Below are positions 2,757-54,900 of a DNA stretch of 64,000 bases, in pieces. The DNA comes from Asterochloris sp. CNOR1 (taxonomy: Eukaryota > Chlorophyta > Trebouxiophyceae > Trebouxiales > Trebouxiaceae): positions 1,364,001 to 1,428,000 of the forward strand of contig OZ017760.1 in assembly GCA_963969365.1 (NCBI GenBank), read 5' to 3'. The notes beneath the pieces were generated by a model, which saw nothing but the letters and a program-made list of their open reading frames with translations, did no database searches and was not told where the DNA came from. Each line of letters opens with the position of its first letter. Position 1 is the first letter of the stretch. Made by a program: the position numbers and the translations under genes.

Positions 2757-2831
2757 AGCCTTGGATGTCTGCCTGCCAGGTGCCTCTCTTGGTGCATGGC
2801 GAGACCACCCCTGAGTCCATTGCTGCGTCAA
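2757..2831 (+). repeat. Decayed copy of GST exon 111-236
   Basis: The segment repeats the acceptor and first part of the GST exon. TGCCTGCCAG is followed by codons for VPLLVHGE.TPESI, against VPLLVDGD.TLIES in the exon. Similarity fades after about 55 bp. No other GST exons follow in order, so this is an echo and not a second gene. Confidence 0.6.
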
Positions 2832-3070
2832 AGCATGTGAGCTCGCTTAGCGGCCGTCCGCAAGCTGGTAGGGCTGGGGAGCCAGAGGCGTCTCGTTGCG
2901 CTGCAGGTGCTCACAGCAGTTGTTGCAGGTGAGGGCAGTAGAGGCCCCTGCCAACCTCTACAGCCCCTGTGACACAGCACCTCTTCCCAGCCTCCTAGCC
3001 TAGCTGCCGGGGCCAGCCTGGTCACCCACGCGCTTCCCAGCACTCCTGCCATTGATAAATCCAGTGCAGC

Positions 3071-3340
3071 ATGTGAGCCTGTGTATGGGGCATCAAAGCA
3101 GGCTATGTCTCAATTTGGCAGGGCACCTGCTGGCACATAATTGCACCCAGAAGCAGGATCTTCCTAGCTCGTTTTAAATTGACGTGTACATCAAAGAAAG
3201 CTGATGTGAGCCTGTGGTATGGGGCATCAAAGCAGGCTATGTCTCAGTTTGGCAGGGCACCTGCTGGCACATAATTGCACCCAGAAGCAGGATAGCCTTC
3301 CTAGCTCGTTTTAAATTGACGTGTACATCAAAGAAAGCTG
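3071..3340. repeat. Recent tandem duplication, two units of 133 and 137 bp
   Basis: Unit 1 (3071-3203) and unit 2 (3204-3340) differ only by two small insertions and about one substitution. Neither unit contains a recognisable gene or mobile-element end. The near identity implies a young event. Confidence 0.95.
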
Positions 3341-5066
3341 ATGTGAATGACAGAAAGATGATTTCGGGCTGAACCCCCGTGGCGCTCTTCATCCTGTCTG
3401 CTCTCGGCTGTTGTGCCCTGCAGCCACAGGATGATGAGGGGGTCAGTCCGGGACACTCAGGGGTTTTGGGCGCCTCCGGAATGGGGTGGTGAGTGCAGCA
3501 GCTGGATCTTTTTGCTAACTGCAATTCCTGCCTACATCATACAAATTCAAGCAGTGACCTGTTCAGTTGCAGGCAGAGGCATAGCCGGCAGCTGGTGTTT
3601 GCATGGCCTCTGATGTCCGATCAGCGGCTTTGGGTGAGCAGATCAGCCTAGCAGCCTTGTGGGAAATGTCCCTGGGTCACCTCAGCTGCTGCTGACCCTG
3701 CAGGTCCTGCAATTTCATGCCCCGGCACCCCAACCAGCCAAGGCGCAGGCTGCCTTATGGTACTTTTGAATATGCTGTGCGGCTGGCTTCTGTGTGCTGT
3801 GCACTACCGCAAACAAACGATAGGAACCCAGTGTCACCGATGCAGAGTGGCTTGATGACGGTCCCAGTACACTCCAGGAAGGAAGGTGTGGCAGCCACAA
3901 GTGACTGGCCCCTTGAGCAGCTGCGCGGCAAGGGCTGACGACCCCTGTGCTGCCATATTTGCTCGTGAGGTCGCTGTGTGGTCGCTGTGTGAAGAACAAT
4001 AGGCTGAGGCACAGCACATCCCAGCGCTGTGCAGGTGGTGCAACTGAAGTCGATTGGGACCCTTTCGCATCAGGTCATCAGGGCAGCCCAACTGCGGGCA
4101 CCAGGGCCCCTCACAGGGGCCCACAAAATTATTCAGCAGCAGCCGCAGTGCTTGCTCCCCGCCGGCAGCCTCAGCACCTCTCATATGCTTGGCCAGCTGA
4201 CAATTAGGGCAGTCAGCATGAGCGAGACGCATAGTACGCCTTGCACTTCACGTCGCCCCTGTGTTTGTATCATTCACAAGAAAAAGTCCTACTGCCTCTG
4301 CACAGGAGTATACTGTCTGCGCTGCCGACGCAGGCTCTCATGTCTGTCTGTTTGTGGTGCTTGCAAAGCTTGTTGTACGCCGACTACAAATAGCTGATGA
4401 GTGATGGGCACTGATGTACTTCAGATGGACAGAGTGAAAGCCGGTCAAAGTAGACTGAAGCTATACCAGAGCAAAAGATGTACCAGAGCAACAGGGGAAT
4501 CCCCATGGGACTCAGGGGAGTATTCAATTCAGATGAAAGTGATCTGTACAAGTGGTGTCCTGCCCGCTAGCTGGATTGATGGCCTTGAGGTCAGAAGCAT
4601 GCCTGATAGGATATGTCTCTGAAGAGGCCTGGTGCGATCTACCCTAACCCTGTGCTGCCCACAGGCACTGATGCCAGTGCTCCTCTGACCACCTTCCTGC
4701 CCAATGCCTACCTGTTTCTGCTTGGGCCTGCCTGGCAGCAGGCTAGGAAGCCTGCGTGGGGCAGGCCCCTGCTTTATGAAATTTGTGGGGTGGCCAGGCG
4801 GTGACCTGCACGTCAGAGGTGACGTTCATGCGAAGGGAGCCTGAACCTGTGCAGGGCCTGCAGGGCTTGCTGGGAGGGCATCCACACAGCTGAATCTGGC
4901 TGCAGTGCGCCCATCAGCAACGGTAGCAGTACAACCCAGAACAGGGCAGGAGGGCGCGTACTGCGGGTCAGCACTCCCCTGAAGGACACTGGCTGGTCTT
5001 TCAGAGCAGCAGATGCATGGAACATGCGAGAGCAGGGGGCTCACCTGAGATATGCCGCCTGCTCCC

Positions 5067-8000: not shown

Positions 8001-11000
8001 GCACACTATGGGAGTCAACAAGGCATGGGCCTGCGTTTGGCAGGCTCCCCAAGTGCTGCTCCTATGCAAAGCTGAGGTATACATCGAAGAGTCCTGGTGG
8101 CGGCCTGGCAGGGGTGACACACTGTACAGAAACACAGCTGGCAGCTTATGCTGCTACTGCGAAGGGTGTGCAGAGTGGGGGACACCAGGAGGGGTGAGCA
8201 GGGCCTCCACCCACACCTGGCTGGCCGCCTGGGCTCATGCAGCTGCTGTTCATCTGATGTGACGCGAGCAGAAGTACAAGCATGCATTTTGCAGTGCCGC
8301 GACAAGCAAAGCAAGGCTCGGCTGACCCCCAGCTGTTGTTCTGTGGGGCCACTGCTGCCGCCACCACATAGGCTGGCCAATGGTCAATGCCAGGCGTTAC
8401 TTATACACTTGCGCAAGATATTGCCGCCATGAGCACAGCAGTGTCTGTGCTCGCCTGCAGATGCTGCTGGAGGGGACCTGTTCCCTGATGCTGTTCCAGA
8501 GAGGGGATAACAAAGCACACAACTGGCCCAGTATCACACAATTGGCCCAGCTGCACACCTGCAGCTGGTGCAACATAGCATGCAACCTGGCATCATGCTC
8601 ACGGCCCTATGCTGGTGCATGATGAGCAACAGCAGGTCATGATGCAATCTAGCATCATGCTGACCCAACACCGAACAGCACGGCTTAGCTGACCACCAGC
8701 TGCTGCTGCTGCGGGGCCACTGCAGCAGCCACCGCCTCTGCTGGGCAGGACTAAGATTGCACAACATGTGTTTGCAACCTAGCATCATGGTACTACAGCC
8801 GACAAAACTTGGCTGACCTCCAACTGCTGCTCCTTGGGGGCCAGTGCAGCAGCCACCAAGTCCGCTGCCCGTGGGCCAGAGCAGTCATAAATCCACCGGT
8901 AGTCTGCGCAGACGCCCTCAGAGTACATACGCATCATCCAGACCAGCCCCTGCAAGCCAACAAGTGCTCATTTGGGCAGATGCCTGGCAGTATAGCTCTG
9001 ACTGGCACCTCTGCTCAGCAAGTATCGTGTTACAGAAGGCCCCTTTGTGTACATACGCATCATCCACACCAGCCCCTGCAGGTAGCCAGTCTGCAAAATG
9101 GTGAAGTTCCTGGACTCTGCTGCATGCAGCCCAGCAGCGCTGCCCTGTACACCAAAGTGTCCTCTTCAAAAGGTGGTCTGCAGATATGCTGTCCCGCCGC
9201 ATGTCCACAGCTTCCCACACCAACATTGTTGGCCTGCTGCAGCTTTGAGGTGAACATGGGGCAAGCAGGCAAGGCGCTTCAGCTACCTCCTCCAAAGTGC
9301 AGGCTTGCCCTGATGAAGGGAGTGTGCATCGCTGGGTGGCCCAGCCTGTCTGCCGTCTTTCCGCAGCCTCAGTGCCAGGCAGAACCCTGCATGCTCACTC
9401 TGAGGTACAGGTGTGCGTCGCTGGGGAGCTTGGCCTGCCTGCCACCCTCCTGCACAGCCTCGTCCTCAGAGTCATCGCTGGTCTCGGAAGGGGACTCGCC
9501 TCCTGGTGTAGAGCCAGAGCTGCCTGATGGAACAGAGGCAGATCAGCTGGAGAAGAAACGGTGCCTGGGGAGGGCAACACACCTATCACAACAAACACTG
9601 TACTAGCCACGGCAAGAACAGCATTGAATGGAGTATTTTCTCCGAGCTGACAGTGACAGTGATCGCAGAGAACATGCAGCATATTAACAGGAGACAAGTC
9701 CATCAATGCCATACAGCTTGCAGCTAGCGAGGTGAGAGGTCTGTTGAATTGAGAAAGGACCAGGCCCGTCTGCTGATGGAGGAGACACACAAATACTTGA
9801 TGGCACAGGTCCAGCAAATAGGGTGTCCACCTGCTTCGAGGCTCGCTGATGAAGTGAACTCAGACAATGACACATCGTGCCGAAGTCTGATTGGAATGAT
9901 CAAGAAAGCCCTGCCTGAGGGGAAGTAACATCGCATGCCTGATGGCACAGGTCTGGTGGACAGCATTGTCTACATGATGTAGGAGGCTGCCAGTTGATGG
10001 TGGGACATTGAATCATCATACCACGCGATGAAGCGGCCAGGCCGCCAGCTGATGGTGGGCGCGGTAAGCAAGTGGTGGCACACGTGTGGTGGACAGCATT
10101 GCCTACCTGTTGAAGGAGCCTCGCTGCCAGGTGCAGGAGAGGTTTGTCGTGACCGGGCAGCCTGCCGCAGTTGGGACCGTGCCTGCTCCAGGCTCACGCC
10201 CAACAGCAGTTGGCACAGCAGCGCGGCGTTGATGGAGGGTTGGCCGTGCTCGTCGAACGCTGCCAGAGTCCTGCAGGCACAGAAGACCTTGGTGTGTTGC
10301 CATACCGATGCAAATTGGGCTGAGGGGAAGCACGCAGAGCGCCACCTTTTGGTAAGCTTGACAGAGCTGGCGCTTCCACAACCACAGAATTTGCAGCAAC
10401 AGGGTGAGCAGCTGGGCAGCTGCTGGTGAGTCTACTGAGGCAGTAAGTGCAGGGTGCTGGATACATGTCACAGCAGCCATGCTATGCATGGGTACAGCAA
10501 TAGGACTTAGTGCACTTGGCAGTCTGCCTCGAGCCTGCCCTGCATGGTGCTCCCAAGACGATGTGCCAACCAAGGTGCACACGGTGAGGCACCCATGCGG
10601 CTGTCTACACAGAACAAGCCAGCAGGCCACTGCAGGCATGATGCCGAGCAGTGCAGGGTGCAGGGCCCAGGCAACAGTCTGCAGCACACTGGTCGGCTGA
10701 CTGGGCCTGGCAGCAGTCATTGCTCAAACAACAGCTGTGCTTGGCAGCCCTGCACGCCTTCCATGGGCACACCATTGCACAAGTCTGGCCCACCCATTGA
10801 GGCTGGCTGTGCAGAGTAGGGCAGCGCTTGCAAAGCAGGCGTGCAGCAGTGTATGGCTTGCTTGGGGCTGAGGCTGCACATTTGGCAGTAGTGTCTGGCA
10901 GTGACAGACATCGGACTGGGGCTGCAGTGTCTGCTGCAATGCAGGGAGCCTGAGCTGAAGGCCACCCCCGAGCACTCACTGCTTGGCCCACTGGGGTTGG

Positions 11001-14000
11001 CTTCGCAATGTCAGATAACGCTTCCACAGCCCTGGCCTCCCTGAATTCCCTGCCAGGGACAGCCCCTTGACCCGCGGCATGTAATCATTACCACAGGCCA
11101 TGATGGCTACCAGGGTGAGGTCCGCCGCAAGACCCTGCAGGACAAGGGCCAACTCAGGAGGCCATCCTGGCAAGGCACGAAGCAGCTTGCTGTGGGGTGT
11201 CATAAGGGCCAGGTCTGCTGCCAGGCCCCTGCAGCAGTGAAGGGCACCTTGGTGAGAGACTTACAGGAGCCGGCAGCACTGCTCCCAGTGCACCTGCCCT
11301 TTGCTGCAAGGTGAGCAAAGCTTCCACCAAAACCAACATGCCTGCGCCCACCTCAGTATGCCCACTCAGCACAGTACTGACCACATCTGCTCCCTGGATG
11401 CAAGCAGTATCATTGCAAGACTTGCTCTTGTTCCAGGCCTGCACAGCTCAGCGTAAAGCATATCATGCACCTGCACGCCGTGCTCCCTCGCAGCAAAGTG
11501 GGCTTTCCAGGCATCGCCCGAGACCAGCTTGAAGGGGGTGCCCCGATGTTGGCGCCGGGCATGGGATAGCTCCATCAAGATAAAGACCCTCTGGGCCGGC
11601 GACATGAGGCTCATCAGAATGATATCGCTGTCATTCCTGCAAGATGATTTTACAGGTGAGAAGCAGGTCCAGGCAGTTGTGAGATGAGGATGAGTGACAA
11701 CAGGTGCGCCACCGTCAATGCCTCAGGGTCTGCACTGCAAATGCTGCATGAGGGTTTAGAAAGTGCAAGACGCGGGGGCTTGCATGACATGGGGTCCAGG
11801 ATGAAGCGGCTGTCGCTGCAGTCTCAAACGCAAATGCTGCATGAGGGTCCCGATTGCATGAAGCGCAACACTTGGGAGCTTGCATGCCAAGGGAGTCATC
11901 AGGACATCTGCGTGCATGCCATAGGGATCATTAGGACAATGGGGTTACCATTCATGCAGAGCCTGCAGCTCAAATGCTTTGCAGGCATTGCAGCTAGAGA
12001 TTGCTTTGGCTTTCTGGGGCATGCTGGACATTTGCAGGACCCAATGATTCTTGACAGGAGAGAAAGGCTGTTGGCTAGTGCCGCTCAGCTTCACAGGTGT
12101 GCATATGGTCCCAGCACTTGCAGCACTGTGACAACAACCTGCTGCTGTCTGGCTAAAGACGAGCAGGCCCCCCAGATCTGTAAAACTAATGCGTCTACGT
12201 GCAGCAATGGCACAGAAATGTTGCCCCCACACTGTCAGGCAGCAGAGTGGCCGTCAAACACAATCCACCCTTTGCGAGTAACAGCACCTAAGCTCACACA
12301 GTGACAAGGGAGCTGATCAGGTGTGGCATGCAAACAGATTACAGAACTGCCTCTGTGTATGCGCCAGCAAGGGCCTCAGGGGCGACGTGTCTGTCCACCA
12401 GCATAGCATACCAACAGCTGCTCCCCACTCACCCTATGATGACATGGCTGGCGCTAGGGTCTGACGCTGCTCGCTCCTTGATGCGCTCCAATATTTTTGT
12501 CTCCCCTTCGCCCTGCACCCACCGCAATGAGTTTGGAATGCAGGAGGCTGTGCAGGCCTATAGTATGCTTGCCAAAGATTTGTACATCTGCTCATGCTCT
12601 GGGGCAGCGCAGCGGCAACGGGGTATGGCATCACCACGATGCACCAGCAAAATCGCATCTCTGACACGGCACCCTCTTACTGGCTGGGAACAGCTCTCTC
12701 AGTGGGACTACCTTCGCCTGCACGCTGGCTGACAATGGCCCGAAAGTCCATCATGGCGGCCTGTAGTCTCTACCAGGACATATGAGGTACCACTGGGAGA
12801 CACTTGACACATCAGAGCATGTAATGTCACCCTCAAAGATGCCCCTAGTGCGCCGTATAGATCGCCCCTGGTGGGCCTCAGCGGCCCGCTCGTAGATCAT
12901 TTAACACGTCAGACCAGGCGAGCCTTACCTGCACATTGGTTGCCGACAGCTCAATGGTCACCCCAGGAAGCTGAGCAGCCGCCAGCAGGCATTTTGACAT
13001 GTCAAAGCAGACCAGCCTCACTTGCACGCTGGCTGACGACAGCTCAAAGGTCTCCCCAGGAAACCTGAGCAGCCGCTGGCAGATGTAGAACTCCAGGCTC
13101 TGCTGCAGCTCCAGCATGAGCGGGGTCCCAGGAGTCAGCCCCAGGGTCGACAGTCCACGACTGCCCGCGTTGGGGATCAGGTGAGACTGCCCGCTGCTGC
13201 CAGGGGTGCCCTCTGAGTCAGGCTCTGCATCAGCATCGTCGCCTGCCGCTATCCTGGCTTTGCGGGCCTCGCGCTGACGCCTCATCCTGCAGCATGAAAC
13301 AACAATGGGACATGAAGGCATGAGGACACAGAGATGTTTGGATGGGTGCAGCGTGATGTATCTACAGCTGCCGCAGAAGACCTACGCCCCCCTGGTGGTG
13401 TCCCCCCAGCACCCGGGAGTCAAGTCCCCTGTGAGTGAGACCCTGCCTGGGCATCGTGACTGGCGGCCACTCTGGCTGTGCACTGCCCTTTGTTCTGCAG
13501 GTGGTGAGGATCATCTGACTACAAGCTAGCCGGTGTGGTCTTGAGGCATTTCCAAGCAAAAGGTGAGGCCACAGCCCTGGGCCGCTGCAGGGTCTGTGCG
13601 CATGGCTGCACATGAGTCAGGTCCAGTGCGTAGACCTACAGTAGATTGAACTTCAATCCAGCATTTTAATATTCCCATCAGCAGGCAGCTCAAAGTCATC
13701 TTGCTCCTTCTGCTGGCCACATATTTACAGCGGCTTTCGTAGAGCCTGTTGATGTCTGACTCAGCAGCTTGGCAAGCACAGTGGAAGCGTCACAAGCTCT
13801 CACCAGCGCAAGTACATCGCCAGTGACACTGTGCCCCCTTGGGGCCTCTGTTCACTACAGCTGCTCGCCACTGCATCAGCAGCTTTCTCAGGAGAGCAGG
13901 GCCCCACTGACAGCACAGCCACTGAAGCATGGGGATCTTGAATCATGCATGATGGTCTTTGGGCTCACCTCTGGGTGAGCTACTTGTCAATTGGGGCAGG

Positions 14001-14787
14001 CCTGTCCAACGCATATTATGTGGTCTGGACCTGGCTTCCTGTTCTGTGCATCAAGCATCAGTGTCACCTGTCAGAGTGAGAAGCTTAGCCAGCAGGGCAG
14101 GCCTGTCCAGCCTGAGCTGTGCCTGCGGCATCTCTGAGCACACTGCAGCTGTTCACCTCTGTCAGAGCAGGCTGACCCAACACAAGGCAGCTCGGCCATT
14201 GTAGAAGGCATTATGAGACTGTGCATGACAGTTCTAAGGCCTCACCTCTGCGTAAGCAATTTAGCTAGTGGGGCAGGGCCGTCCAGCGCAAACATGACGG
14301 TCTTGCGGGCCTTGGCTAGCCTCAGCAGCTCGTCCAAGCGCTTGTACAGCAGCTTGTGCAGGTTCTCCCGGTTGGTGGCTGTAGGGGACACACCATGTGT
14401 GAATTGGAGCAGTTGGCTGACAGTGAAGGCCTTGAACTTCATAGGCTGCTCTCAGCAGCTTTGCAGGTGCAGACAGCAGTTTGTGCAAGCTGTTGTGGGT
14501 GGTGCCTCCACAGCAAACTGACAAAGGCAGTATGGTGAGGCATGCACCGCCACGAGGTGCACATTACAAGCTTCTCACCTCTGTGCATGACAGTGTGCAG
14601 AATGGACGCCATATCGATGTACTGCAGTGGAGGGTTAAAAAGCTGAGGCGAAGAGACCAAGCTGTTGCCGGCATGCAAAAGCAGCTTTCAAGCAGCTCAC
14701 CACATGATCGTACTCTCGAGACTTGACATCCAGATGTGCATACTTATGTTCCCTTGTGAACCAGCTCGAGAAGCCTTTGATGCCCAT
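5067..14787 (-). CDS. XRN-like 5'-3' exoribonuclease
   Basis: Exons in transcription order: 14787-14701, 14621-14579, 14378-14246, 13286-13022, 12512-12433, 11636-11471, 11134-10980, 10270-10107, 9523-9399, then less certain ones near 9175-9085, 8949-8857, 7818-7673, 6661-6571, 5644-5518 and 5133-5067. The first nine join in frame. The start MGIKGFSSWF matches the XRN N-terminus (MGVPKFFRWL). Conserved acidic sites follow in XRN order: YIDMASILH, FALDGPAPLAK, SASVQGEGETKILERI, IIGNDSDIILM, ACGNDYMPR, and GLVWMMRMYSEGVCADYRWIYD. These should bind two Mg2+ and degrade 5'-monophosphorylated RNA. Oddities: the family DMN reads DMA, and the family PGEGE reads QGEGE. The joints 9399/8949 and 7673/6571 are unresolved, so one small exon may be missing. 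The 3' end at 5067 is phase-consistent; an alternative runs to 4813. It shares a divergent promoter with SEC11. Confidence 0.85.
7250..7672 (-). repeat. Degenerate repeats of the splice-donor side of exon 7673-7818
   Basis: The intron just 3' of this exonuclease exon carries about four related blocks (near 7250, 7400, 7485 and 7640). Each centres on a GCGCAGCGCTCTGTGCA-like word, which also borders the exon's donor. They look like local tandem copies of the exon-intron junction that have diverged. Confidence 0.5.
8320..8860 (-). repeat. Three copies of the donor junction of exon 8857-8949
   Basis: Blocks at about 8320-8372, 8688-8736 and 8811-8860 share one pattern. On the minus strand it is GGTGGCTGCTGCA, then GGCCCC, then CAGCTG.. 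and GGTCAGC. The block nearest the exon includes its GTGGCT donor. The other two lie in the following intron. Confidence 0.7.
9047..9082 (-). repeat. Copy of the acceptor side of exon 8857-8949
   Basis: The minus strand reads CTGCAG followed by codons for GLVWMMRMY, the same as the start of the exon at 8949, displaced by 126 bp. The sequence just upstream continues as TGYLQ, so YLQGLVW is intact here, but after MYT the frame loses XRN similarity. Which copy the mRNA uses is unclear. Confidence 0.75.
10780..10835 (-). repeat. Decayed copy of the 3' end of exon 10980-11134
   Basis: The minus strand encodes CKRCPTLHSQPQWVGQ, against WKRYLTLRSQPQWAKQ in the exon. The copy sits about 200 bp downstream in the next intron and includes the stretch around the donor. 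Confidence 0.7.
12690..12985 (-). repeat. Two decayed copies of the 3' end of exon 13022-13286
   Basis: The exon ends LLRFPGETFELSSASVQ. A copy at about 12905-12980 reads LPGVTIELSATNVQ followed by GTAAGG. A shorter copy at about 12695-12735 repeats GTCAGCCAGCGTGCAGG. Both lie in the following intron, one behind the other, and include the donor position. Confidence 0.75.
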
Positions 14788-15049
14788 CTTGGCTGACACA
14801 GCTTAAGGTGAGGTGGGCATGCACGACTATGGATCTAGAGGCTATGCACTGCCACACGCCACCATAATTAGATGGCAGCCAGGCCTGAAGGCATCAGTGT
14901 GTTTCAGGTTGAGCATGCGATGGATGGCAATCGAGTGCCTTTGACCTGAGGCACCTGATCTGGGCGCTCACATCTGACAGGAGTCGCTCTGGGTTGAGCT
15001 CTGCCATTGATCTGATCCTGCTGGATAGCTTCCTGAGACCAGGGCGGGC
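14788..15049. promoter_or_regulatory. Shared divergent promoter, exoribonuclease / SEC11
   Basis: Only 262 bp separate the two opposite start codons, so both promoters and 5' UTRs must lie here unless non-coding 5' exons exist. I see no clear TATA box. Confidence 0.5.
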
Positions 15050-20200: not shown

Positions 20201-23200
20201 AGCTTCTGGCCGCCTGCGCGCAGGCCTGGCAGCTGCTGAGTTTGCAGGCCGGGAGCGTCCAGGGACCACAGGCGCCTTCGCTGCAGCCCTGGCTGTAGCA
20301 GAGCTGTGGGGGGCAGCAGCCAGCTCAGGAGTGGCCCTTGGTCGGGCAGCTGCCACGGCCAGGCTAGCTGCAGGCGTGCTGGCAGCTGCTGCCTGGCTGT
20401 TGCCCAAGGCACTGGCAGGTTGCGCTGGCGTGGAGGTAGCCGCCGGTTTTGCAGCAGCTGTTGGGGTAGCAGCAGCAGGGTCCTCGCCCTGCTCTGCAGG
20501 GAGCTGCTGCTGCTGCCCGTCCCCTGCAAAGCGCATCTGGCGCTTGGCCACCTTGCTGGACCACTCCGTCTCCTGTCTTGGGTTCCAGGCACTGGAGATG
20601 GGGCTGCCATTGACCTGCTCAGGCAGCCCTGCCTGCGTGGCAGCAGGTGGCGGCGGCTGCTGCTCGTCAGCATGAACATCGTTGAGCTGACTCTTGGCGA
20701 GTGCGTGCGAGCGGATGGCTCGTTGGATGTCGCCCGAGTGGCACTGCCCCTTGGTTCGCAGCTCGCTCTCTATCCGCGTCAAGCTGGCCTGGGAGTAGCG
20801 TCGGCGCTTAACTGCCCGCTCGGGCCGATGCACCTGGGGCTCAACCTCTGCCTCCTGCTTGATGATCACCGCTGGCTGTGGCAGCAGCATCGAGGATTTG
20901 GGTGGCTGCGGGCCTGGCTGGGGCCCAGCAATGACAGACGCCAGCAGAGTTGCAGGGGACTGCCACGCAGCTGCCAAGTCTGTGGGCTGCTGCTGCTGCC
21001 CTGGCAGCAATGCAGTGGCCGCAGGACCAGCTGTGCTGTCCCCCAATGTTAACGCCGCGGGCTGGCGGGCAGCATCCCCTGCAGGCTCCATTTGCTGCTG
21101 CAGGGGCTCTGAGTTGGCAGCAGCGCCAGCCGCCTCATCATGCGGCACAGCAGCAGCAGCGCCTTCCTCAGAGCCAGCCGACGGTTCACAGCTGGGCTGC
21201 TGCGGCGCTGCCTCCCCCCCGCCAGCTCTGATAAAGCTGGCAAGCTGCTGCAGCGCCTCGGGCGATGGCTTGAGGTCGTTCTTTATGCAGAAGGCAAGGT
21301 CAGCTGCCTGCCCCCAGAACCCCAGGGTGAGGTTCTGCGTCCTGGTATATTCCAGGAGGAAGCGAAACTGCATCGCGTGTTATGGTTTGCCTGAGGCAGC
21401 TTGAAATCTTTTCATTGCAGATTGGTGTCAAGGCTGTTGGCACGTAACCGCACAGTGAAAGTGTCTAAGTATGGTTTGATCAAGGCAGACATCATCAAGC
21501 CCCAGCTGCAGGTTCTCCAGAGCAGAGATCTCGATCATACAAGATCAGGCTGGTGGTCCATGCAGACTGCCAAGACAGTACAGCAACAATTCACAATGGC
21601 CATACTGGCAATATGAGAGCTATGCACTGGTGTTTGTAAGGCCCATACTGGTGAGGCAGGATGCAACGCCACAGGCGGCCAAGCACAAAGTGTCTACCTG
21701 AGCAAAGGACTAGAGCTTGACAAAAGGCTGTACATGCAGCACATACATACTGAAGCTTTGACAAATAGCAGCATCCCAAGGCAGCTTCAGATGTGCTCAC
21801 CAGGCAGCAACCATGATCAGTCTTCAGGCTGCTGTTGTTTCTTCGATGCAGCGTCACAAACGAGGCCTTGGGTGGGGGCACCCCATGAAAGCGCCGCCCC
21901 TCCACCGCACGTGCCACGTTGGCTGCCTGAGCAGTGTTGACATTGATGTTGATGGCATACAGGTTGCCTATGAGCTGCAGCTGCAGGTCAGTGACGGCAG
22001 GTGTATGGTAAGAACTGTTGAGCAAGCGCTCCATTGCAGCTTATGATGGGAATCGCATGGCAGATGCTGGGGTGGGCAGAGTACAGCTGTAAGCCATCAG
22101 CAGGCCAGTACTAAGGACTGTGGGGCAGCTTACAGGCAATGTATTGAGGAGACAGGCTGTCCAGCACCGCGTGGGTAGCAGCTGCCCTGTAGCTCAACAG
22201 CTTTGATGCTTCCATGCCAAAGGAAATGAGCAGGCTTCCAATGTGATGAAACTGGGCCATTTGAGGCTGAGCGCAACAAGAACCGGGCAAGAGGACCCAT
22301 GCCAAGATCTCACCCGCTTCCAGCTCTGCCGAATGAAAGGCCCCTTGCGAAGAGCTTTGGTCAAGTAAGAGTCATCCTTCATGGTGGTGGTGAACACAGC
22401 ATCGAAGCTGCGCAGTTCTGCCACAATGGCGCTCCGTGCAAAGTCATTGGACGGCTCAGGTGGCGCCTCGGGCGATCTGACAGCAGCAGCAGCAGGCTGC
22501 TTGACAGCAGCAGCAGTGGTAGACTGCTTGCCAGCAGCAGCCTGCTTGGTGGCAGCAGCGTCGTGGCTGGCTGGCTTGGCTGAGTGGGCCTGGCCCCTGC
22601 CATTGCTGGCTGGGGGCCGTGCAGGGCTGCCTGGGGAGGGCCTGCCCAGCTGCCCCATGTCAGCTGCAGCAGTGCCTAAGCTACGCAGGGCAGTACCATG
22701 AGAGGTGCTTGCCATGGGCGCCCCACTCCTCGCCTCCTGGCCAGACGCCTTGCGCTTCTGCCCCGCAGACTGCTGCAGGCGTGTGAGGGGCGGTGGCTGC
22801 GGCCCAGGCACTCTTGGCCGCAGAGTGGTGGGCCCGGCAGGCTTGACGGCTGCAAGCCCGTGGTGAAAGCTGAAGGCGTTTGGCTGGGGTACAGCCTGGA
22901 GCTGCTGCCCAAGGCGAAAAGGCAGTGACTGGGGCGACGCTGGCAGGCCACCATTAGAGCGCGGTGCAGTGGGCGAGCCAAACATTCTGCGTTGCTGCGG
23001 GCTTGGCACAAAGCCAGGGGCCAGCCCGGCAGACTGCTGGTGAGGCCACCCGACAGGAGGTGAGCTGTCTGGAGGGAGCTGCAGGCCCATTCTGCCAGCT
23101 GGCGAGGGGGGGTTAGGAGCAGGCTGCTGCTCAGGTGCTGTGCTGGGCGGCCTGCCAGCAGGAAGTGGCGAGCTGACCTCCGGAGCAGGTGCAGTGCTAA

Positions 23201-24962: not shown

Positions 24963-36527
<11,565 letters not shown>

Positions 36528-45200: not shown

Positions 45201-46027
45201 GCTATGCCACGGTCCTGCTCTCATCTGCCTGTTGCCCATGTGCATTCTTGCACAGAGCAAGATCCAACATGGATGGCTGCACGCCTGACACTGTCCTTGT
45301 GCACCCTGATGTCAGCGGTCTCCATGCAACATCCCGTATTCCCTGCAGGGCTCAACTCCAATGTGGCTGGCCGCACACCTGACATTGTTATTGTTCCCCT
45401 CCCGGGCGTCGTGTACGCCAGTCCCCAAGCCAAGGTATCTGAGCACGGAGGCCTCATGAAGGTAGGGTCTGCTTTCTGGCAGGCAGGTCACTTCTTCATT
45501 GGCCTTTGCAAGCAAGCGTTTGGCAGCCGATGTCAGTCATACACATGTTGCTCACAGCGGGCCCTGCTGGTGGCGTAGTCCCCTCTTATGCTGTTATCTT
45601 GCTTGTGGCACCCTCAGTCTGCTCACCCGTCTCTGGTCTCTGCCTGCAGCCGGACCTCAATGTTGCTCTGGCTGTGGTGCTGCCCCCTGGCTCCTCAGCA
45701 GCCGGCACCACTGTCAATGACACTGTGAACGTGCAGCAGGTGGCTGCCACTGCTCTGTCCCTGCTGGGGCTGCCCCTCTCCGGCCTGACTGCTGGAGCAG
45801 CCAACCCTCTGCCTGGGCTGGGGACCAGTCCAGCGTCTGCGGCTGCCCCCACTGCTGCCACTCTGCCCCTTGCCTCATCCACGGCATCCGGCGCAGCAGC
45901 TGCAGCAGCCCTGGCCCCTGCAGCCCCCGCTGCGGTGAGCTCAGCAGGAGCGGTGGTCGCCCCTGCCGGTGCCAATCAGGCCAATGCTGCCACCCCAGCT
46001 CAGCCTAAGCCAGAGGCTGCAGGATGA
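39237..46027 (+). CDS. Secreted alkaline-phosphatase-superfamily phosphodiesterase/nucleotide pyrophosphatase
   Basis: Eighteen exons join in frame (678 aa with this start): 39237-39417, 39979-40156, 40489-40601, 40850-40891, 40995-41024, 41161-41196, 41514-41588, 41741-41781, 42004-42138, 42248-42304, 42451-42475, 42640-42681, 42975-43087, 43573-43684, 44272-44423, 44819-45032, 45349-45461 and 45650-46027. A hydrophobic stretch (VAAFASALALLLAVANGQA) looks like a signal peptide, but the 28 residues before it suggest that the true start may lie in an unseen exon. Family motifs appear in order: NVLLISVDGLHSQDL (metal Asp), GPSDSFPGIVALTTG (nucleophile region), YDDSYDRTLYPP, NYVDRSIGTIYQAL, IITAKHGQ and SEHGG (metal His residues). 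It probably hydrolyses extracellular phosphoesters. The C-terminus is an Ala/Pro/Ser-rich tail. The intron after 42304 is GC-AG. Confidence 0.9.
45262..45312 (+). repeat. Copy of part of exon 45349-45461
   Basis: The intron reads AACATGGATGGCTGCACGCC then TGACACTGTCCTTGTGCACC, against AATGTGGCTGGCCGCACACC then TGACATTGTTATTGTTCCCC in the exon, displaced by about 92 bp. Confidence 0.7.
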
Positions 46028-47327
46028 TACCATCCCCAGCTATCTCCTTCCTATGTTTGCTGAACGTTGTGCGCATGGTCATGCTGATTGGCATGCATGC
46101 GATGTCATGATCGAAAGTAAAAGTTGCTTGCAAGTACACAGAGAGGTTTCAGTCCTCATTGTCAAGGTCGACAACTCTCAACACCATTCCTGTCGTCTCG
46201 CACCGCAGCCAAAGAGGCCTTATTGTCTGTACCCTGCTGTGCTTGCCATAGGTTTGCTGCTTGTGCACAATACGTCCTCTGTGACTCTGCATATGTCTCG
46301 CGGCCTGCTCGTAGTATCGAGCATCAAGTGACCCTCCCGTGCAGCCATGAAGTTCTCTCAAGGCAGCAGTCATGCTCTCCTCAAGTGCTGAGCCACCAGT
46401 GGGCATGAGGCACAGAGGGTGACCTGCCATGCTCACACAGGGCTGCAGGCATACACAGGCATACACATCTCATGCTGATGGTCACTTTTTGTACATGGTT
46501 GTGATGGCTCAGAGGCAACATCCCCACTGCAGTCGTGTTGCATTCCATGATGAGGGAAAGTGTGCAAAAATTGCATGATGGGCAACAGCTGTGGCAGGCA
46601 GAATAGCTACCGTCACAAGCCAACTGGGACGCCCCCGGAGGAACCACGGTCACACATCTCAAGAGCAATCCTCTGCTCATGTAGGGAGCACCATACAGCA
46701 ACGTCTGGCCATGAAGCCTATCTGCCATGTGTATGTCTGCAGTGCTCTGCGAGAGTGTCCATGGCAGCCACCTGCCCGGCCTGCAGCTTGCTATCCAGTG
46801 GCGCTGTGGTCATTGTTTGAGCAGCTGGCATTCAGGTTCCATGCTGCGCAAGCCAGGTGTGACGTCCCTGTGCCACTCTCCTGACCCACATGCTTGCCAG
46901 CATCTGACAGGCCATATGAGATCACGCTGCAAAAAGGCGGCAGCCTAGATCACCATCGCAGAGTATGAGCAGCTGTGCCTCATGAGGCCGTGCTCATTGC
47001 CAGCCTTGGCAGATCACACGGCAGGTCAAGCTCATGGTCAATGCTCGCCACAACATGGCATCTGCTCATCGTGGGCGCTCACGCAGGATCCCCTCTGAGG
47101 CTGAGAGGAGCGTGGGGGAGCGACACTTGGAAGTCGGTATGCCTCATTAGCCTTGCCAAACATTGCTGAACACTGGCTGCTACATGACTGAGTCCAAAGC
47201 CTTGACGCAGTACACACCACGCAAGAGGAGGTGGCACATAGGGGATCTGTGCTGGTAAGTGCAGGCATTGCAAGGGCGCTCTCCACGAACCGCTGGCTGT
47301 GCAAGGCTTTCCGTGCCATTCCTTCAG
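46028..47327. other. Intergenic or 5' region of the ALADIN gene, unresolved
   Basis: No gene can be assembled. The phosphodiesterase 3' UTR and the 5' exons of the ALADIN gene (about the first 30-40 residues are missing from my model) should lie here. Short minus-strand frames near 46150-46470 have no domain. Confidence 0.4.
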
Positions 47328-50300
47328 GCCTTCTACCCCAGCGTTCAGCTGCCTCCTGCGGAAGAGGAAGCCAGCAGCCCAACAACCGCAGCTCGAGAGC
47401 GTGCTGAGGAAGGTTGGCGGCCTGCCCTCTGTTGGCTGCTGGTTGCGTGAGGCTTGCAGCAACCTGCTGGCTTCCGCTGTGCGATAGTAGGTCACACAGC
47501 GTTGCTCAGCACCTGTGCTGCAGGCTGTGCATCTCTCTGAGTTGCAACACAGAGCGTCGCATTCCTTCACAATCATCGCTTGTGTTGCAGGCATTCCAGT
47601 CAGCGCCAGTTGCCCAGCGGTGCAGTCAAGAAAAGTCCTTCAATGGTTGGGGAGGCAAGTGCTGTTGCATGGAAGAGAGCAGCTTACATGCTCGTCACTT
47701 GGCTTGTTGGGTCCCACTTAGGCTTTGCCCCCCGACCAATGCAGCTTTGGCTTGGTGCGATCGTCCTGGCATGCAATCTGGCCACTACGCGCTGCATCAG
47801 CTTTGCTTTGGGACGTACTGAAGCTCCTATGTCGCCAGGCGCTGATGCTCTTCTCTGGGTGAGCCTCCCAAGGACTGTAACAAATGTCCTGGCTCACAGC
47901 CTGCCGTGCTTCTCCAGGTGAGGTGCTTGGCGACATTGCTGCTACAGGCAGATCACATTGTGTGATGGTCCCCTTGCAGAGCAGGCCCAGGAGGGGCAGT
48001 TCCTGGCATGCAGGTCCCCAGGCCAGATTCTGCAACCCACGCAGGCTCCTGCCATGGCTTGGCACCCACACAAGCAGTTACTGGCGGCAGCTGGCAGCAG
48101 CACTGCAGTCTATGTTGCCCCGCTGCCATCTCCTGTGCAAGGTGGCGGCAGCTTGAACCAGTCTACCTCGCCTGACATGTGTTTGAAACATCGCCTGCAG
48201 CAGAAGGTGGGAGCACAGAGCTGCAGGTGCACACAAATCCTTTGACCCTGGAAAGGACCTCTGCCAGAAGGGGCCTCTGCCGAACTTAGCAGTACCTTTG
48301 GTCATTGTGCTGGCAGTTGCTGCAGTGCAGCTGGGTGTGCACTGCTTGCAGCACAGGACTGCAATCATTGCTGTGCAGCAGGGACTGGTGTGGGAAATTT
48401 TTGGGTTACGATTGGCAGCATCACGGCGCTGCAGGACCCGCTGCATTTTGTCCATGCTAGCTCCCGGCTTATCTTGCAGGCCCTGCAAGTGGGTGCTCTG
48501 CCTTGGCGGCCCTTGCAGCAGCAACACAAGTGCCACCGACCAAGTTGCACAGCTGAGCCTGCAGCCTCCTCCTGCAGGTGGGCGCGGTGGCGTGGCGGCC
48601 CCACAGCGGTGAACAGCTGGCGGTGGGCACCCTGGGTGGAGTGTGCCTGTGGTCCTGGGCTGGGGCCCTGCAGGGGTGAGCCCCAGCAAGCATCACGACA
48701 CCCCAGGCTCTCTGCTCTCTGCTGCGCCACCTGCCAGGCACAACACATGAACGAGCTGGGCAGCTGCCTCGCCTTGCGGGCCCATCATGTGAGGTCCTGT
48801 CCGCGCAGTGCTTCCTGGTCTCCGGTCCTGTTGACCCCCTTGTCTCTCGCCCTGCTGCAGGCGCGGCGCACAGCAGCACAGCCTGACATTCCTGAAGGGC
48901 CTGGTGTCGGCAGGCATCACGTCGCTCAGCTGGTCGCCCAATGGGCGGCTGCTGGCTGGCGCCTCAGAGGGGTCTGCGGGCTTTCATGTCTGGGATGCAG
49001 CCTCGGGCAGGGGCACACGCATCGCAGCAGGTGGGTGGGCCGACTGCTAGGGGCTGATGCTGTCCGGGTTTGGTGTCAGGGCTGGGGCAGCTGCTGGCTG
49101 GTGCCTCATAGGGGTGGGCAGGCTTTCCAGTCTGGGCCGCAGCCTCTGGCAGGGAGACAAGCACTGCAGCAGGTGGGCACAATCAGTGAGCCAGCTGCGG
49201 CAAGCCCCTCGCCAGAGTCCTCTGCTCAGGCAACTTGCACAGTGTGTGCGTGTCTTCTTACTTGCGCTGCCTGTGCTGCATGTCAGCCTGCTGCGCTGGC
49301 CCTGTTGCCTCTTTTCAGGCTTGACCAAGTGAGAGAGCTCTTGCTGGTTTCCTTTCATCTTCCACCGCTTGCAGGTGTGAGGGCTGCCAGCTCCTTGCGA
49401 TGGGCCCCTGCCCAATCTCACTGCCCACATCAAGAGCGGCTGGTTCCCCAACTGCTCTGCTGCTGCAGGAGCAAAGCCCGTGAGCAGGTTGCGCTGGTCT
49501 CCTGATGGCGGGCGCCTGCTGGTGGCTGCCACAGACAGCAGCTTCCAGGTGCGGGCTCTGCAGGATGTTGCATCTGGCCGCCCAAAGCTTGCCCCCCATT
49601 ATTTTGAGGCGGCAGCATGCTGGGCATGGTCGCCTCTTGCAGTAGTGGGAGATAGGTGTCCAGGACCTGCCAATGTGGGTCTGTGCTTTGGCAAGTACTT
49701 GTGCAGCATCAGTATCACTTCCACAAGCCGTTTGCAATAGTCACTTCCTGCACACTGCAGGTGTGGGAGACGGGTGCCTGGGGCCACGCGACCTGGGAAA
49801 GGCCCCAGGCCAGCGCCCTGTGTGGGGCTCAGTGGGCCGCCGACGGGCGCTCCCTGCTGCTGGCCTACAGCAGCGCCCAGGTGGTGCAGCTGACGTTTGT
49901 GGACGAGGCCCCCAGCCTGGAGGGCGTGCTGGCGCCTGCGCAGCTGCCAAACTTCGATGCGTCAGGTGCACCGCAACCCCAACGTATTTTCACAAAGTCT
50001 TGCTTTGCATGATGTCCACCATGCTGGGCTGCTGCCCAGTGAATAAGACTGTAAGGGGGCACTGGTGGCCCCTGCCTCAGCTGGCATAGAGAGAAGACTG
50101 CCCGGACTGCAAGTAAGTTGCCGCATGCGGCCTGCATGCCGTGTGGGCATGCTGACGCCTGCACAGCTGCCCAATGTTGATGTGTCAGGCACAAGCACAA
50201 TGTGCAACAGGGGCCACTCAGGGCTGCTCGTACCCAGCAAAGCTGACTGGAAGTAGTACTGGTAGCTGCAGAGCGGCCCTGGCCATGTGTGGCAAGCATG

Positions 50301-51042
50301 GCAGAGGGTTGCCACCTGAGCTGCTCCAGTCCAGACAGATCCGGCTGCAAGGGCCGGGTGGACATAGACAAGGAGTCACTCCCTAGGGTTCAAATGCCTG
50401 AGTTCTGGGTGGGGTCGCATTGTCCTGCTCTTGATGTAAGCAAGGCTGGGAGACATGCAGGTGTCTGTCAAGGCGCCTTCGTCTGAGAGCCGATGGTGTG
50501 GGCTCCTGTCATTATAATGCATATCCATGCATCAGCATTCTGGGGCCTGGTGGCCCTCTACGACATGCTGCTGTGTGACTTTGCTGCAGGCGGCCTACTG
50601 ACCAACATGGCAGTGGTGAAAGCACCTGGCTAGGGTGGTAGATGCTCTTCGTCACACACCGTTCTGTGGCTGTGCTGCAGGCGGCCTGCTGACTGACATG
50701 GCCTGGGACGACAGCGGGGAGCGCTTGGCAGCGGCAGTGGGTGGAGCTTCAGAAGCCCAGGGCTTAGTGGGGCTGGCATCGACAAGTTCGGCTGCTGCAC
50801 GGCGCTTTGGCAACGTCCTCAGGGGTGACTTCCTGGGGTGGATCAGGAGCAGCCCCGATGCACAGAGAGCAGATGCTGTGCCCTCAACAGCAGACACCAC
50901 TGGCCTCATGGGCTCTGGGCAGCCAGTCGGCGTGCTGCCCACAGTCGGCCTTGCTTTCTCAGCGGCTTGCAAGTCTGGCGCCCTGCTGGCCATCAGGCAT
51001 GGCCTGCAGAACGTTGTACTATTTCCCTGCAATCAGGGGTGA
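47328..51042 (+). CDS. AAAS: Nucleoporin ALADIN (WD40), 5' end unresolved
   Basis: Firm exons: 48045-48206, 48578-48675, 48861-49030, 49469-49548, 49761-49965 and 50681-51042, all in frame. Probable earlier exons are 47328-47412 (FYPSVQLPPAEEE) and one near 47592. WD40 blades read AMAWHPHKQLLAAAGSSTAV, VGAVAWRPHSGEQLAVGTLG, ITSLSWSPNGRLLAGASEGS, VSRLRWSPDGGRLLVAATDS, VWETGAW and TDMAWDDSGERLAAAV. Landmarks shared with plant and animal ALADIN are LKHRLQQK before the second blade, LAPAQLPNFDA, GNVLRGDFLGWIRSS and the C-terminal GLAFSAACKSGALLAIRHG. ALADIN sits on the cytoplasmic ring of the nuclear pore. The gene follows the phosphodiesterase gene on the same strand and is convergent with the lipase gene. 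Confidence 0.88.
48479..48540 (+). repeat. Decayed copy of the 5' end of ALADIN exon 48578-48675
   Basis: After a CTTGCAG the intron encodes LQVGALPWRPLQQQH, against QVGAVAWRPHSGEQ at the exon, displaced by about 90 bp. Confidence 0.75.
49040..49170 (+). repeat. Decayed copy of ALADIN exon 48861-49030 (3' half)
   Basis: GGGCAGCTGCTGGCTGGTGC and later GGGCAGGCTTTCCAGTCTGG repeat the exon words for GRLLAGASEGSAGFHVWD, followed by GCAGCCTC.GGCAGGG and another GCAGCAGGTGGG donor. The copy is displaced by about 140 bp and contains a stop. Confidence 0.85.
50135..50210 (+). repeat. Decayed copy of the 3' end of ALADIN exon 49761-49965
   Basis: The intron reads GGGCATGCTGACGCCTGCAC then AGCTGCCCAATGTTGATGTG then TCAGG, against GGGCGTGCTGGCGCCTGCGC then AGCTGCCAAACTTCGATGCG then TCAGG in the exon. 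The donor position is included; displacement is about 224 bp. Confidence 0.85.
50580..50620 (+). repeat. Copy of the 5' end of ALADIN last exon
   Basis: TGCTGCAGGCGGCCTACTGA then CCAACATGGCAGTGG repeats the acceptor and start of the exon at 50681 (GGCGGCCTGCTGACTGACATGGCCTGG), displaced by 92 bp. Copy frame and acceptor are intact for about 10 codons. Confidence 0.85.
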
Positions 51043-51959
51043 ACCCAGTTGTCATGAACATTGCACCTGGTGCTTGACAACTGTGAGTATGGTACAATGT
51101 GTGACATCAGTACATCATGTCAACAATGTCCTGCAGCATGCACACAGGCCATGGGCAAGAAAGGTGGCTCATCAGCAGAAGCAGGTCGCTCAAGATTGTG
51201 TTCTGCTTGGCAGGACATTTGCTCAGTGGCCAGCTGCACTCTGAGCATCCTGCAGCTCTGGCTGCTTGACCTCATCCTCTGGGTGCTTTTGTATAACTGA
51301 ACTGCTGTCGTTGGGCTGGGCAGCAGCCAGCCCATGCTGCTGAGGTTGACAGCAACTGTCCCAGCCTATGCATGTTGGTTACATGCGACAAAGGTTCTGC
51401 TGTTGTCCTTCCCACCTATTCTGCCTGGCCATCCAGGTGCTGACCTGTCTCTTGCATGCCAGCGGACTCATGCTCACACTAAGATGATGAGACACAATGC
51501 TGGCGCTCTCAAGCTGGGCACAAGTCATGCAGCTCAATCACTCTTGCTCAATTGACAGCAATCATTGGAGGAGCTCATGCATGCTCATGAATGAATAGGA
51601 AGTCAGCAAAGGCAATAGGAGACAACATGTGTTCCGTTCATGTGGGGGTTATGAGTGGGCAATTCATCAATGCTGAACAGTTCGAAAACTTCTGGCTGCT
51701 GCAAAAATAGACGTTGCGGACATAGGAGTCAGCTGCCAGTCGGCAGCAGATCATGCAGCAAGCAAGCGGGGGCTCCCTCTGGCGTAGACTTGCAGATGGC
51801 ACAGGTGTAGTGAAGGAATTGGTGGGCTGCTTCAAGGGGGCCACTTTGTATGTGGTAGTCACATAGATATGTAAGCTATAGCTTCCTCTGGCATTGCGGC
51901 TGCCAAAGCTCAGAGGAGTGCACTAGAAGGTGCGCAATATCGCTGCCCTGCTGGTGAGG
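51043..51959. other. Convergent intergenic region
   Basis: This stretch lies between the facing stops of ALADIN and the lipase gene. No supported coding frame, RNA gene or repeat was seen. Confidence 0.5.
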
Positions 51960-54900
51960 CTAAGGCACACTGGCCCCTGCTGCTGGCCCATTAAGGTTAG
52001 CCACAGCCAGGGCCTTCTCAGAGGCAGTCCGCATGCAACCCAGGGAGCCCCGCTGCTGTGACTCCCCTACAGAGAGGGCCAGCTCCGAGGCAAGCCGCAT
52101 GGTGCCTAGGTAGCCATGCTGCTGCTCGTCCCCGGCGGCAAGGGCCTTCTCTGAGGCAGCCTGTGGCTGCTGACGGTCCCCAGCAGCAAGGGCCTGCCCG
52201 TCCGTAACACTGTCTGAGCGGGCCTGCTGCGCACTTGCCTGCTCTGCTGCTGCTGGCAGGCCGGGCTGGCTCCTGCTCTGGGGCGGTGTGCCAGCACCTG
52301 AAGTCTCAGACTGAGCCCGCCACCCGGCCGGACTGTGCTCAAGCTGCATGAGGCTGGCTGGAATGGACTGGGACCGCTGGTGCAGCTTGCGCCGCGAGGA
52401 ACTGGCCGACCACCAGCGCTTGAGGCTGCGCCCACCAGAGGCTTCAGCTGTGCCATCTGCTTGCAGCGCAGCTGCGGGGGCCAGGTTGAGGGACTGCTGG
52501 CCGAGGGAGAGCGGCTTGCGCCTAGTCTGCTCCTGCAGAAGAAATGGGTGGCCGGCATGAATGGCTGCAGCAACTCTGTACCAAGGTGAGTTTTGGCATC
52601 ACCAGACACTGTGCTGAGAGGCACACAGGCTTCCAGTGCGCCCAGCAGATCAACTTGTGCTCTCGCACGGGTAGCAAATGGAGGCACAATCGGCTCGCAA
52701 GAAGTTGTGGCAGCCAACTGGGCCCCTGCCTCCCTACCACACACTCACAGCAGCCTGCTCTGGCATGGACTGCCCAGAATTTTCCTGCGACTCCGAAAGC
52801 ATCTTGGCCTCCTGCAGCACCTCTTACTAACCCAGCAGGCACATGTGCACTGACAGCCTGCCAGGGCGACATCAGCCCAAGGCAGATATCCATGGCCAGC
52901 GCACAGCCGAAAGCTTGTGGCTCCTGCACTCCTTTATGTCAGCTCAAACCCCACCTGCCAGCCTGAGATAGTCATGGCCTACTGCAGCAGCCCCAGCCTG
53001 CCCTGCAACGTGCAAGCTGCCCATGCAGCCATGTTGCACTGCCGGGTTGCCAGGCAACACACCACCTTCACCAACCCACAGGCTGCGCCTACCTGCTGGC
53101 CTGGAGTGAAAGTGGCCACCTGCAGGAGCCCCTGCCCGTCCATGACACACTCAAACAGTCTGCTATGGCCATCACAGCCCAATACCTCTGCCAGCCAATG
53201 ACATACTGGCCTCCTGCGGCAGTGCCAGTCTAGCGTGACAGCAAAGATACAGATCCACCCCCCCCACCCCCCGGGAATCAGTGAAGAACACACCTGCCAG
53301 CCTGGGAAGCTCATGGCCTCCTGCAGCAGCCCTCGCCTCCCCAGCTGCGCAAGGTAGTCTGGGAAAGAGATATCCTTCAGGCTGCCAGCAGTAGACACGC
53401 TGCTGGCACTGGACAGCATTGACGCCCTGGACTCGAGCTGGGTCTCAGCGCCAGCTGGAGCTGTGTACTGCAGCGCGCTGCTGCTGCTGCCCCCCTGGCT
53501 GTCTAGGGCAGGATTGTGACGAGAGTCGTCCAGGGCCTCTGCAGGGGACAGGCTGTGTTGCTCAGGCCGCATTGCCCATGAAAGTGTTGATGTCCAAAAG
53601 GTGTGAGGGCAGGCACTTTTGCTGAGGCATATGATACGCAAGTGGTGCATTGCACAGCTGGGCTGTGACGTGGCTCAAGCCAGAAATGGTGCTGTCACGT
53701 GCCTAACAGAGAGAACCATCAGGCTTTGCAGCTTTTGCACAGCTGTGGCTGTGACCTTGCCTGGCAAATCTTGGAGGAGATGCTGCCGTGCACACAGCTG
53801 TGAGCTGCTGACATGGTACTACGCTAGGATCTGATGCTGCTCCCATCGACACAGCAACTAGCAGCTCTCACCAGTCTGCTCTTCAGAGCCCTCAGGCGGC
53901 TGCTGCTGGGGGGACTGCACGCTGCCCGCGAGACCCAACTGGTCCCTTTGGCTGATGTGGCGCATCCACTTCTCGTGGCTGACCCCGTTGCCCTGCCCCG
54001 GGCGCACCAGCCGGCACACCCCGTCTGTGCACACAACGGTGGGCTCCGCCCCAGACCTCCAGAGCAGCCCCTTGGCCTACAGCAGGTGCAGGGGGGGGCT
54101 CAGACCTGGGCTACACAGCCTTGAACTCTCCCCTTTGGCATGGAGGCAGGGGTACGGCCACAAGGTCAGCAGAGGAGCCTGCGGTGATTGTCTTCTGCGC
54201 CTCTTGCAGCACCCTGCTCTCCGCCACCCCAGGGCTCTTTCAAGTCCTTGACCTTCTTGCTGTCCAGGCTCACCCTCAGCAAAGCAGAATCAGGGCGATT
54301 GCAAACGCTACCTGGGCTCCTCAATGAGTATCTGCCTTGTGGCGGAGGTGCACAAGGTCCTGCAACAGTGAAACAAATGGATTCTGTGCAGGTGTGGGCT
54401 CACCCCCTGCTTGCCCTTCTGGGCAAGCCCTCCCAGCTTGAGTGCGACTGTCCCGCCATATCTCCCCAGGCGGTCCAGTTGCTCCACTTCAAGGCCAGCA
54501 TGCTTCAGCACTCCACGGATGTCATCACTCGCCAGCAGACTCAGCACGCCCTGCAGGCCAAAGGGAAATGCATTGGTTCACACAGCAAGCAGCAATCTCC
54601 AGCACGCCATCAATCCCAAGACATGCCACCAGGTGCAGCGTGTCCTGCAGCCATCTCCAGAAGGTATGTAGATTCGTACAGAGGACATGCCAGCATGCTT
54701 CAGCAGTCTAGGGGGTCTCGAAGTCTCCAGCAGATGCAGCACCCCTCGCAGATGGAGGGAAGATGATGCAGCAGCCGATTAATGCTGCAAACGAAGAGGT
54801 GCAGAGCAAACTGCTGGTGTCAATCTTGCTGCTGCCGGCCTGACAGCAGGGCATTGCGGGCTTAAGTGCTTGATGGCTGTGGTCGTTGCTGCTGAAACAT

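Follow-up and report, generated by a model that had tools for sequence, protein, structure and literature searches.

Partial copies of exon ends in the introns of a 64-kb Asterochloris region as probable products of recurrent local duplication

That segments within genes are duplicated in tandem, that whole exons are so duplicated and that introns can arise in this way is already established, as set out in passages of PMC4974935, PMC3443670, PMC9013439 and PMC12343006. Tandem genomic, or internal gene, duplication (Rogers 1989; Gao and Lynch 2009; Hellsten 2011) is cited in excerpts of PMC4974935 and PMC3443670, the former including a potato gene whose structure was unaltered by an 83-bp intronic tandem duplication. 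Tandem exon duplication and mutually exclusive exons are the subject of excerpts from PMC9013439 and from the Exonize study (PMC12343006). The latter distinguishes partial, inter-boundary and intronic matches, which occur in significantly more genes than full-exon duplications; these affect ~4–7% of vertebrate genes and are generally fewer in lower eukaryotes. Introners, as outlined in part of PMC9860276, generate intron sequence in bulk across many genes. The present analysis concerns 64,000 nucleotides (the window) of the green alga Asterochloris sp. CNOR1 (assembly GCA_963969365.1, contig OZ017760.1, forward strand, positions 1,364,001 to 1,428,000), in which partial, decayed copies of exon ends, here termed echoes, lie in the adjoining introns. 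Among the matches listed in a literature search, which covers subscription journals thinly and gives papers in part, no report was found of algal introns widely populated by decayed copies of exon junctions.

The echoes resemble tandem genomic duplication, as portrayed in excerpts of PMC4974935 and PMC3443670, in being short intragenic tandem copies that bear splice signals. There, a new intron is made from an exonic AGGT segment, whereas here existing junctions appear to have been copied into existing introns and then to have decayed, in 16–18 introns or flanks of the one window (tallied by hand). As in tandem exon duplication, the copies adjoin their source exon; unlike those duplications, they cover only part of the exon, are for the most part anchored at a junction and are usually broken. 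The figures available from PMC12343006 refer to full exons, so the densities cannot be ranked against each other.

The main count was taken from a strict gapped self-scan of the window, in which direct pairs spaced 20–1000 bp were recorded. Forty-nine pairs reached a score of at least 90, 34 of at least 110 and 18 of at least 140. Shuffling in 12 replicates, with dinucleotides preserved within 150-bp blocks, gave means of 0.5, 0 and 0 pairs at these thresholds, and a second control of nine far shifts gave 0.2, 0 and 0. In a separate test, each exon with 15 bp on either side was compared with its 500-bp flanks, the null being the same exon against distant regions; a flank copy was found at p ≤ 0.01 for 16 of 51 exons. 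Self-alignment thus returned a similarity well over the shuffled controls, and an earlier note on this DNA, made from the sequence alone, was right to claim a similarity of exons to their own flanks beyond chance. The spacing that it gave as typical, 75–225 bp, also agrees with that of the 48 pairs lying within 600 bp (median 141.5 bp, quartiles 94–248 bp). Identity extends from 97% to the detection limit, which indicates a range of ages, and most pairs are diverged by 15–30%. The low far-shift mean at a score of at least 90 also shows no introner-type sharing among the introns of unrelated genes within the window. In both cases intron sequence would be generated in many genes, but introners copy between genes (PMC9860276, seen in part), whereas the similarity here is local.

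Low complexity, local composition or assembly error might produce such a pattern, given the CAG/CTG-rich sequence. With a looser scoring, ten block shuffles yielded 1–10 pairs each at a threshold of at least 145, compared with 34 real pairs, and for this reason the counts are from the strict scan, in which 49 pairs stand against a shuffle mean of 0.5. The looser scoring at a threshold of at least 130 gave 48 direct pairs and a single inverted one, the hairpin at 56364–56442. Pairs of 96–97% identity could be assembly duplicates, but assembly error would not give the divergence found in most pairs. An artefactual origin is largely refuted and can be regarded as very improbable.

Twelve gene models were assembled from predicted exons, which were later refined by homology and by inspecting junctions. 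For the overlap counts, five first-pass exons were removed and three refined ones added, certain exon ends having been refined once the echoes had been inspected; the unrefined list was run too. Among the 48 pairs spaced 600 bp or less, 24 touched an exon, where circular shifts predict 13.3 (p 0.002), and 17 spanned an exon boundary, where 9.4 are predicted (p 0.0045). With the first-pass exons, set before the echoes were inspected, 21 pairs touched an exon (p 0.01) and 16 spanned a boundary (p 0.02). After thinning so that each 600 bp kept a single pair, 13 of 31 were exon-touching, compared with 8.7 expected (p 0.05). The other 24 of the 48 pairs, overlooked in the earlier note, overlap no annotated exon. 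The claim that the copies belong specifically to exon junctions is therefore not supported, though the exon bias persists. With half of the pairs outside annotated exons, the echoes seem to be the conspicuous share of a wider habit of local duplication.

At least one echo pair was found for 12 of 27 well-supported exons, a set that takes in three exons recognised by eye (two SEC11-like, the third at 59.8 kb) as well as the exon at 8818, whose XRN_M match is weak. Exon-touching pairs within 600 bp occur in six of the 12 models (XRN, ACAP-like, 37.8 kb, phosphodiesterase, Aladin and 52–55 kb) and are concentrated in XRN, the ACAP-like gene and Aladin. No such pair was found in the 1.5–3 kb, SEC11-like, 18.7 kb, 19–24.6 kb, lipase and 58–62 kb models; one exon of the 19–24.6 kb model is touched by a pair spaced 822 bp. 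Hence, of the 18 introns in eight of nine genes reported initially, the number of introns is close to the hand tally given above, but the spread over nearly every gene is not borne out. The pairs at 37.8 kb and 52.0 kb lie in coding-like, repetitive sequence, are spaced by multiples of three and may be no more than repeats within a protein.

The pattern is rather likely to result from recurrent microhomology-primed local duplication, junction copies being tolerated since splicing discards them. Short local duplications would recur in the region, mostly at spacings of 50–300 bp and in both coding and noncoding DNA; microhomology of a few bases probably primes them while DNA is being replicated or repaired. 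When the copied unit spans an exon–intron junction, the exon-proximal copy would stay in use and the remainder would become intron; because the gene keeps the exon-proximal copy, the duplication would be tolerated. As the exon is under selection while the copy decays, an exon echo should stay recognisable for somewhat more time than a pair in noncoding DNA. Copies would be ignored by splicing, duplications within exons would be purged, introns would grow longer with time, and the old pairs would have arisen as plain tandem events like the young ones.

Four pairs of more than 80% identity are aligned over the whole unit. The overlaps at their breakpoints are 6 bp (ATGTGA) in the pair at 3071, 4 bp (CTGC) at 29385, 6 bp at 34660 and 1 bp at 19225; only four cases are available, and by a rough estimate of our own an overlap of at least four bases is expected by chance at ~2% of breakpoints. 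Such overlaps are characteristic of duplications that arise between short direct repeats.

Echoes on the donor side are found downstream of the exon and include part of its end, in some cases together with the donor; those on the acceptor side are found upstream. Two or more echoes accompany the ArfGAP, PH and ankyrin (35267) exons, the exon at 8818 and XRN exons A and B. The donor GT is retained in eight of the 11 donor-side echoes with a placeable junction, as read by eye (on the minus strand from the alignments); in a twelfth the junction was uncovered. Five donor-side echoes have a strong donor (those at 26639 and 49085, both from XRN exon A and one from XRN exon B). Six echoes on the acceptor side were scored: two match real acceptors in strength (35160 and 50574), one has a weak AG, one has lost the AG, and for two the junction was wrongly placed in the scoring. 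These five donor-side and two acceptor-side echoes are above the 90th percentile of noncoding GT/AG sites.

Eighteen exon–echo alignments were set up, of which 15 had exon columns that could be examined by codon position; two XRN rows without a frame and one BAR row consisting of flank only were left out. Mismatches amounted to 82/341, 72/344 and 125/348 (24, 21 and 36%) at codon positions 1, 2 and 3, respectively. Eleven of the 15 alignments include a stop codon or a gap whose length is not a multiple of three, certain of these gaps falling in the intron part. This is as expected if selection holds the exon while its copy decays freely, and the copies are, as initially described, diverged and mostly frame-broken. 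If both copies were protein-constrained, the third-position excess should be much larger. The echoes thus seem mostly unused by splicing. Whole-exon copying with the frame kept is not the pattern, the copies being partial; the end of XRN exon B, by comparison, is copied in frame.

That exon could suggest that the echoes are functional alternative exons, either mutually exclusive or with alternative donors. Its two in-frame ends, 93 bp apart, have candidate donors GTGCAA/GTGAGG and GTGCAG/GTAAGG, and either end gives a Pfam XRN_N match (3.9e-19 or 1.5e-19; 69.5 and 70.8 bits). Four of the 15 alignments are unbroken, including that of the ankyrin echo at 35160, which is ungapped and open and has a strong acceptor, and several echoes have strong splice sites. 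Nevertheless, echoes copy only parts of exons, the other 11 alignments are broken, and the pooled third-position excess is only ~1.6-fold, matching one-sided constraint. In the two ArfGAP echoes, judged by what is taken to be the catalytic-arginine motif of the domain, the arginine is absent from both translations, as read by eye. A function as alternative exons is thus quite improbable for the echoes as a class.

Several observations weigh against recurrent local duplication by plain tandem events. No pair has both copies fully exonic, yet merely 0.5–0.6 such pairs were expected. A further pair, 12900/12993 in XRN (80% identity, 90 of 93 bp aligned), has no overlap at its breakpoint. Across ten units that include exon sequence, 542 of 733 positions in the exon part (74%) and 259 of 428 in the intron part (61%) are identical, the latter being near the null of 0.56–0.61. 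The intron part is below the null in four of the ten (Aladin 48.9k, 0.47; BAR 27.1k, 0.52; Aladin 49.8k, 0.54; XRN exon A, 0.57), the exon part of the same units being 66–82% identical. Copying to a displaced site with a spacer would suit these four units equally well; low intron identity would also be expected from a frozen exon joined to a freely drifting intron. Since the intron identity of the older units is barely above the null, plain tandem copying is not demonstrated for them. The mechanism put forward in the earlier note, slippage or microhomology-mediated tandem duplication followed by decay, accordingly agrees with the direct orientation, local spacing, range of ages, one-sided constraint and 4–6 bp overlaps in three of four young pairs, and is less secure for the older units.

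Bacterial DNA in the same scan also contained pairs scoring at least 90: six in L001 (20.9 kb), six in L002 (20.9 kb) and five in L003 (7.2 kb). The six of L001 belong to one repeat-rich locus with scores up to 459, and those of L002 and L003 are short, scoring 136 or less. An algal relative had been sought among viral contigs (four queries) and genome contigs (tubulin query), and none usable turned up. L001–L003 are from metagenome-assembled genomes labelled Polyangia and Myxococcales and contain tubulin homologues (L001 10001–10948, L002 10001–10942, L003 2439–3377) with 50–52% identity to the eukaryotic-type beta-tubulin query. L004 (3.4 kb), labelled Gammaproteobacteria, has an 87% tubulin match over a longer span and looks like eukaryotic contamination; it was left out of the comparison scan.

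A further point against copying blind to exons is the neutral simulation, in which copies were placed anywhere and exons were constrained. The simulated exon-touching share was 24–26%, compared with 50% found with the refined exons and 44% with the first-pass exons; this simulation is crude and its rates were guessed. In it, slower decay of exons accounts for only part of the exon bias. The higher share leaves room for duplication targeted to exon–intron junctions, beyond the effect of slower decay, for instance through co-transcriptional R-loops, through microhomology supplied by splice-site motifs such as CTGCAG or GGTGAG, or because copies are kept as spare or decoy splice sites. The excess of exon-touching pairs over circular shifts points the same way, as do the 16 of 51 exons with a flank copy against 19 of 102 random noncoding segments with a local copy at p ≤ 0.01, these being raw counts. 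On the other hand, half of the pairs lie away from annotated exons, the excess is smaller with the first-pass exons and after thinning, the simulation rates were guessed, and certain exon ends were refined after the echoes had been seen. Junction targeting as the main cause is hence considered unlikely. As the simulation is crude, there may be a modest preference for junctions.

Table 1. Gene models, source exons, echoes and young duplications in the window. Positions are those of the window; percentages are identities; a slash within a donor sequence marks the exon end.
Feature	Position	Strand	Remarks
XRN gene	8–15 kb	-	Pfam XRN_N 3.9e-19
ACAP-like BAR-PH-ArfGAP-ankyrin gene	25.0–36.5 kb	+	Pfam, joined protein: ArfGap 5.6e-20, BAR_3 1.1e-18
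Aladin gene	48.8–51 kb	+	joined protein against solved Aladin chain (PDB), 5.7e-29
Class 3 lipase gene model			Pfam-supported, 5.2e-12
Type I phosphodiesterase gene model			Pfam-supported, 9.3e-6
SEC11-like gene			identified by eye
Remaining models, named by place	1.5–3 kb; 18.7 kb; 19–24.6 kb; 37.8 kb; 52–55 kb; 58–62 kb		
Young duplication, unit ~133 bp	3071–3346		outside annotated exons; ATGTGA at 3071, 3204 and 3341
Copies around exon 8818–8949	8310–9080	-	8310 with 8677, 8312 with 8803, 8643 with 8773; 8915–8954 with 9041–9080, 90%, acceptor within copy (by eye); exon has weak XRN_M match, 0.012
Second echo of XRN exon B end	12706–12748	-	74%; GC at donor GT position
Copy of XRN exon B end	12900–12988	-	80%
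XRN exon B	13020–13284	-	end repeated in frame 93 bp downstream
Two echoes of XRN exon A end	13946–14109	-	GT donor after each
XRN exon A	14245–14378	-	end placed to within about a base
Short echo of end of BAR exon 25737–25855	25992–26017	+	92% over 26 bp
BAR exon end (exon 26395–26574)	26519–26574	+	copied together with donor
BAR exon-end echo	26639–26710	+	donor CTG/GTGAGG retained; in-frame stop
Echo of end of BAR exon 27057–27191	27236–27293	+	
Acceptor-side echoes of PH exon 29222–29409	28993–29176	+	spacing ~104
PH exon end and donor, 29-bp tandem duplication	29385–29445	+	97%
ArfGAP exon	31701–31985	+	source of two downstream echoes; end 31908–31985 copied at 32045 and 32196 (spacings 137 and 270)
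ArfGAP exon-end echo 1	32045–32134	+	70%; donor GT gone
ArfGAP exon-end echo 2	32173–32282	+	GT retained, weak
21-bp tandem duplication	34660–34707		
Acceptor-side echo of ankyrin exon 35267–35408	35160–35246	+	77%
Acceptor-side echo of phosphodiesterase exon	45263–45305	+	exon placed by eye from 45347; this piece by itself gave no phosphodiesterase match
Copied portion of Aladin exon 48861–49030	48943–49030	+	
Echo of that Aladin exon end	49085–49177	+	83%, ungapped over 93 bp; donor CAG/GTGGGC retained; in-frame stop
Echo of end of Aladin exon 49761–49965	50138–50189	+	79% core; donor GT gone; longer extent 50024–50193, 69% in exon columns
Acceptor-side echo of Aladin exon 50681–50877	50574–50611	+	acceptor retained
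Echo of predicted exon 54488–54550	54689–54751	-	exon without homology support
83-bp tandem duplication	62329–62496		outside annotated exons; 88% over 59 bp

The window (57.8% G+C) is eukaryotic DNA rich in introns. CpG is strongly depleted (observed/expected 0.36, and 0.34 outside exons) and TpG is in excess (1.71), which resembles a heavily cytosine-methylated genome. Rfam and tRNA scans of the whole window gave no matches. At the end of XRN exon B, an open frame at 12900–13085 on the minus strand crosses both copies and the two donors and represents a candidate alternative 5' splice site; the exon B fragment had no match in the PDB. Also in the XRN region, a register of ~195 bp is kept for some 900 bp at 10429–11487 with 56% identity in a loose gapped scan and is perhaps an ancient tandem array; it is absent from the strict pairs scoring at least 90, and weak long alignments can come from composition alone. 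The 19–24.6 kb model, which has no Pfam match, includes a stop-to-stop frame of 725 codons, rich in Ala, Gln and Pro, at 22194–24371 on the minus strand. The hairpin at 56364–56442 is a perfect inverted repeat with 31-nt arms and a 17-nt loop within an intron of the lipase model.

Because several echoes rank above the 90th percentile as splice sites, annotation pipelines may take echoes for exons. As an example, the initial gene model called an exon at 32081–32101, inside the first ArfGAP echo. A more far-reaching proposal, speculative and not likely though worth stating, is that exon–intron junctions are duplication hot spots in this lineage, each event adding a spare donor or acceptor, so that introns would grow by accretion, decoy sites would be renewed and new splice forms would be drawn from them, as perhaps in XRN exon B. 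The origin of intron sequence is largely unknown. If it is true that 12 of 27 well-supported exons carry copies of their ends, direct measurement would become possible of intron lengthening, of the decay of spare splice sites and of the choice made by the spliceosome between near-identical sites.

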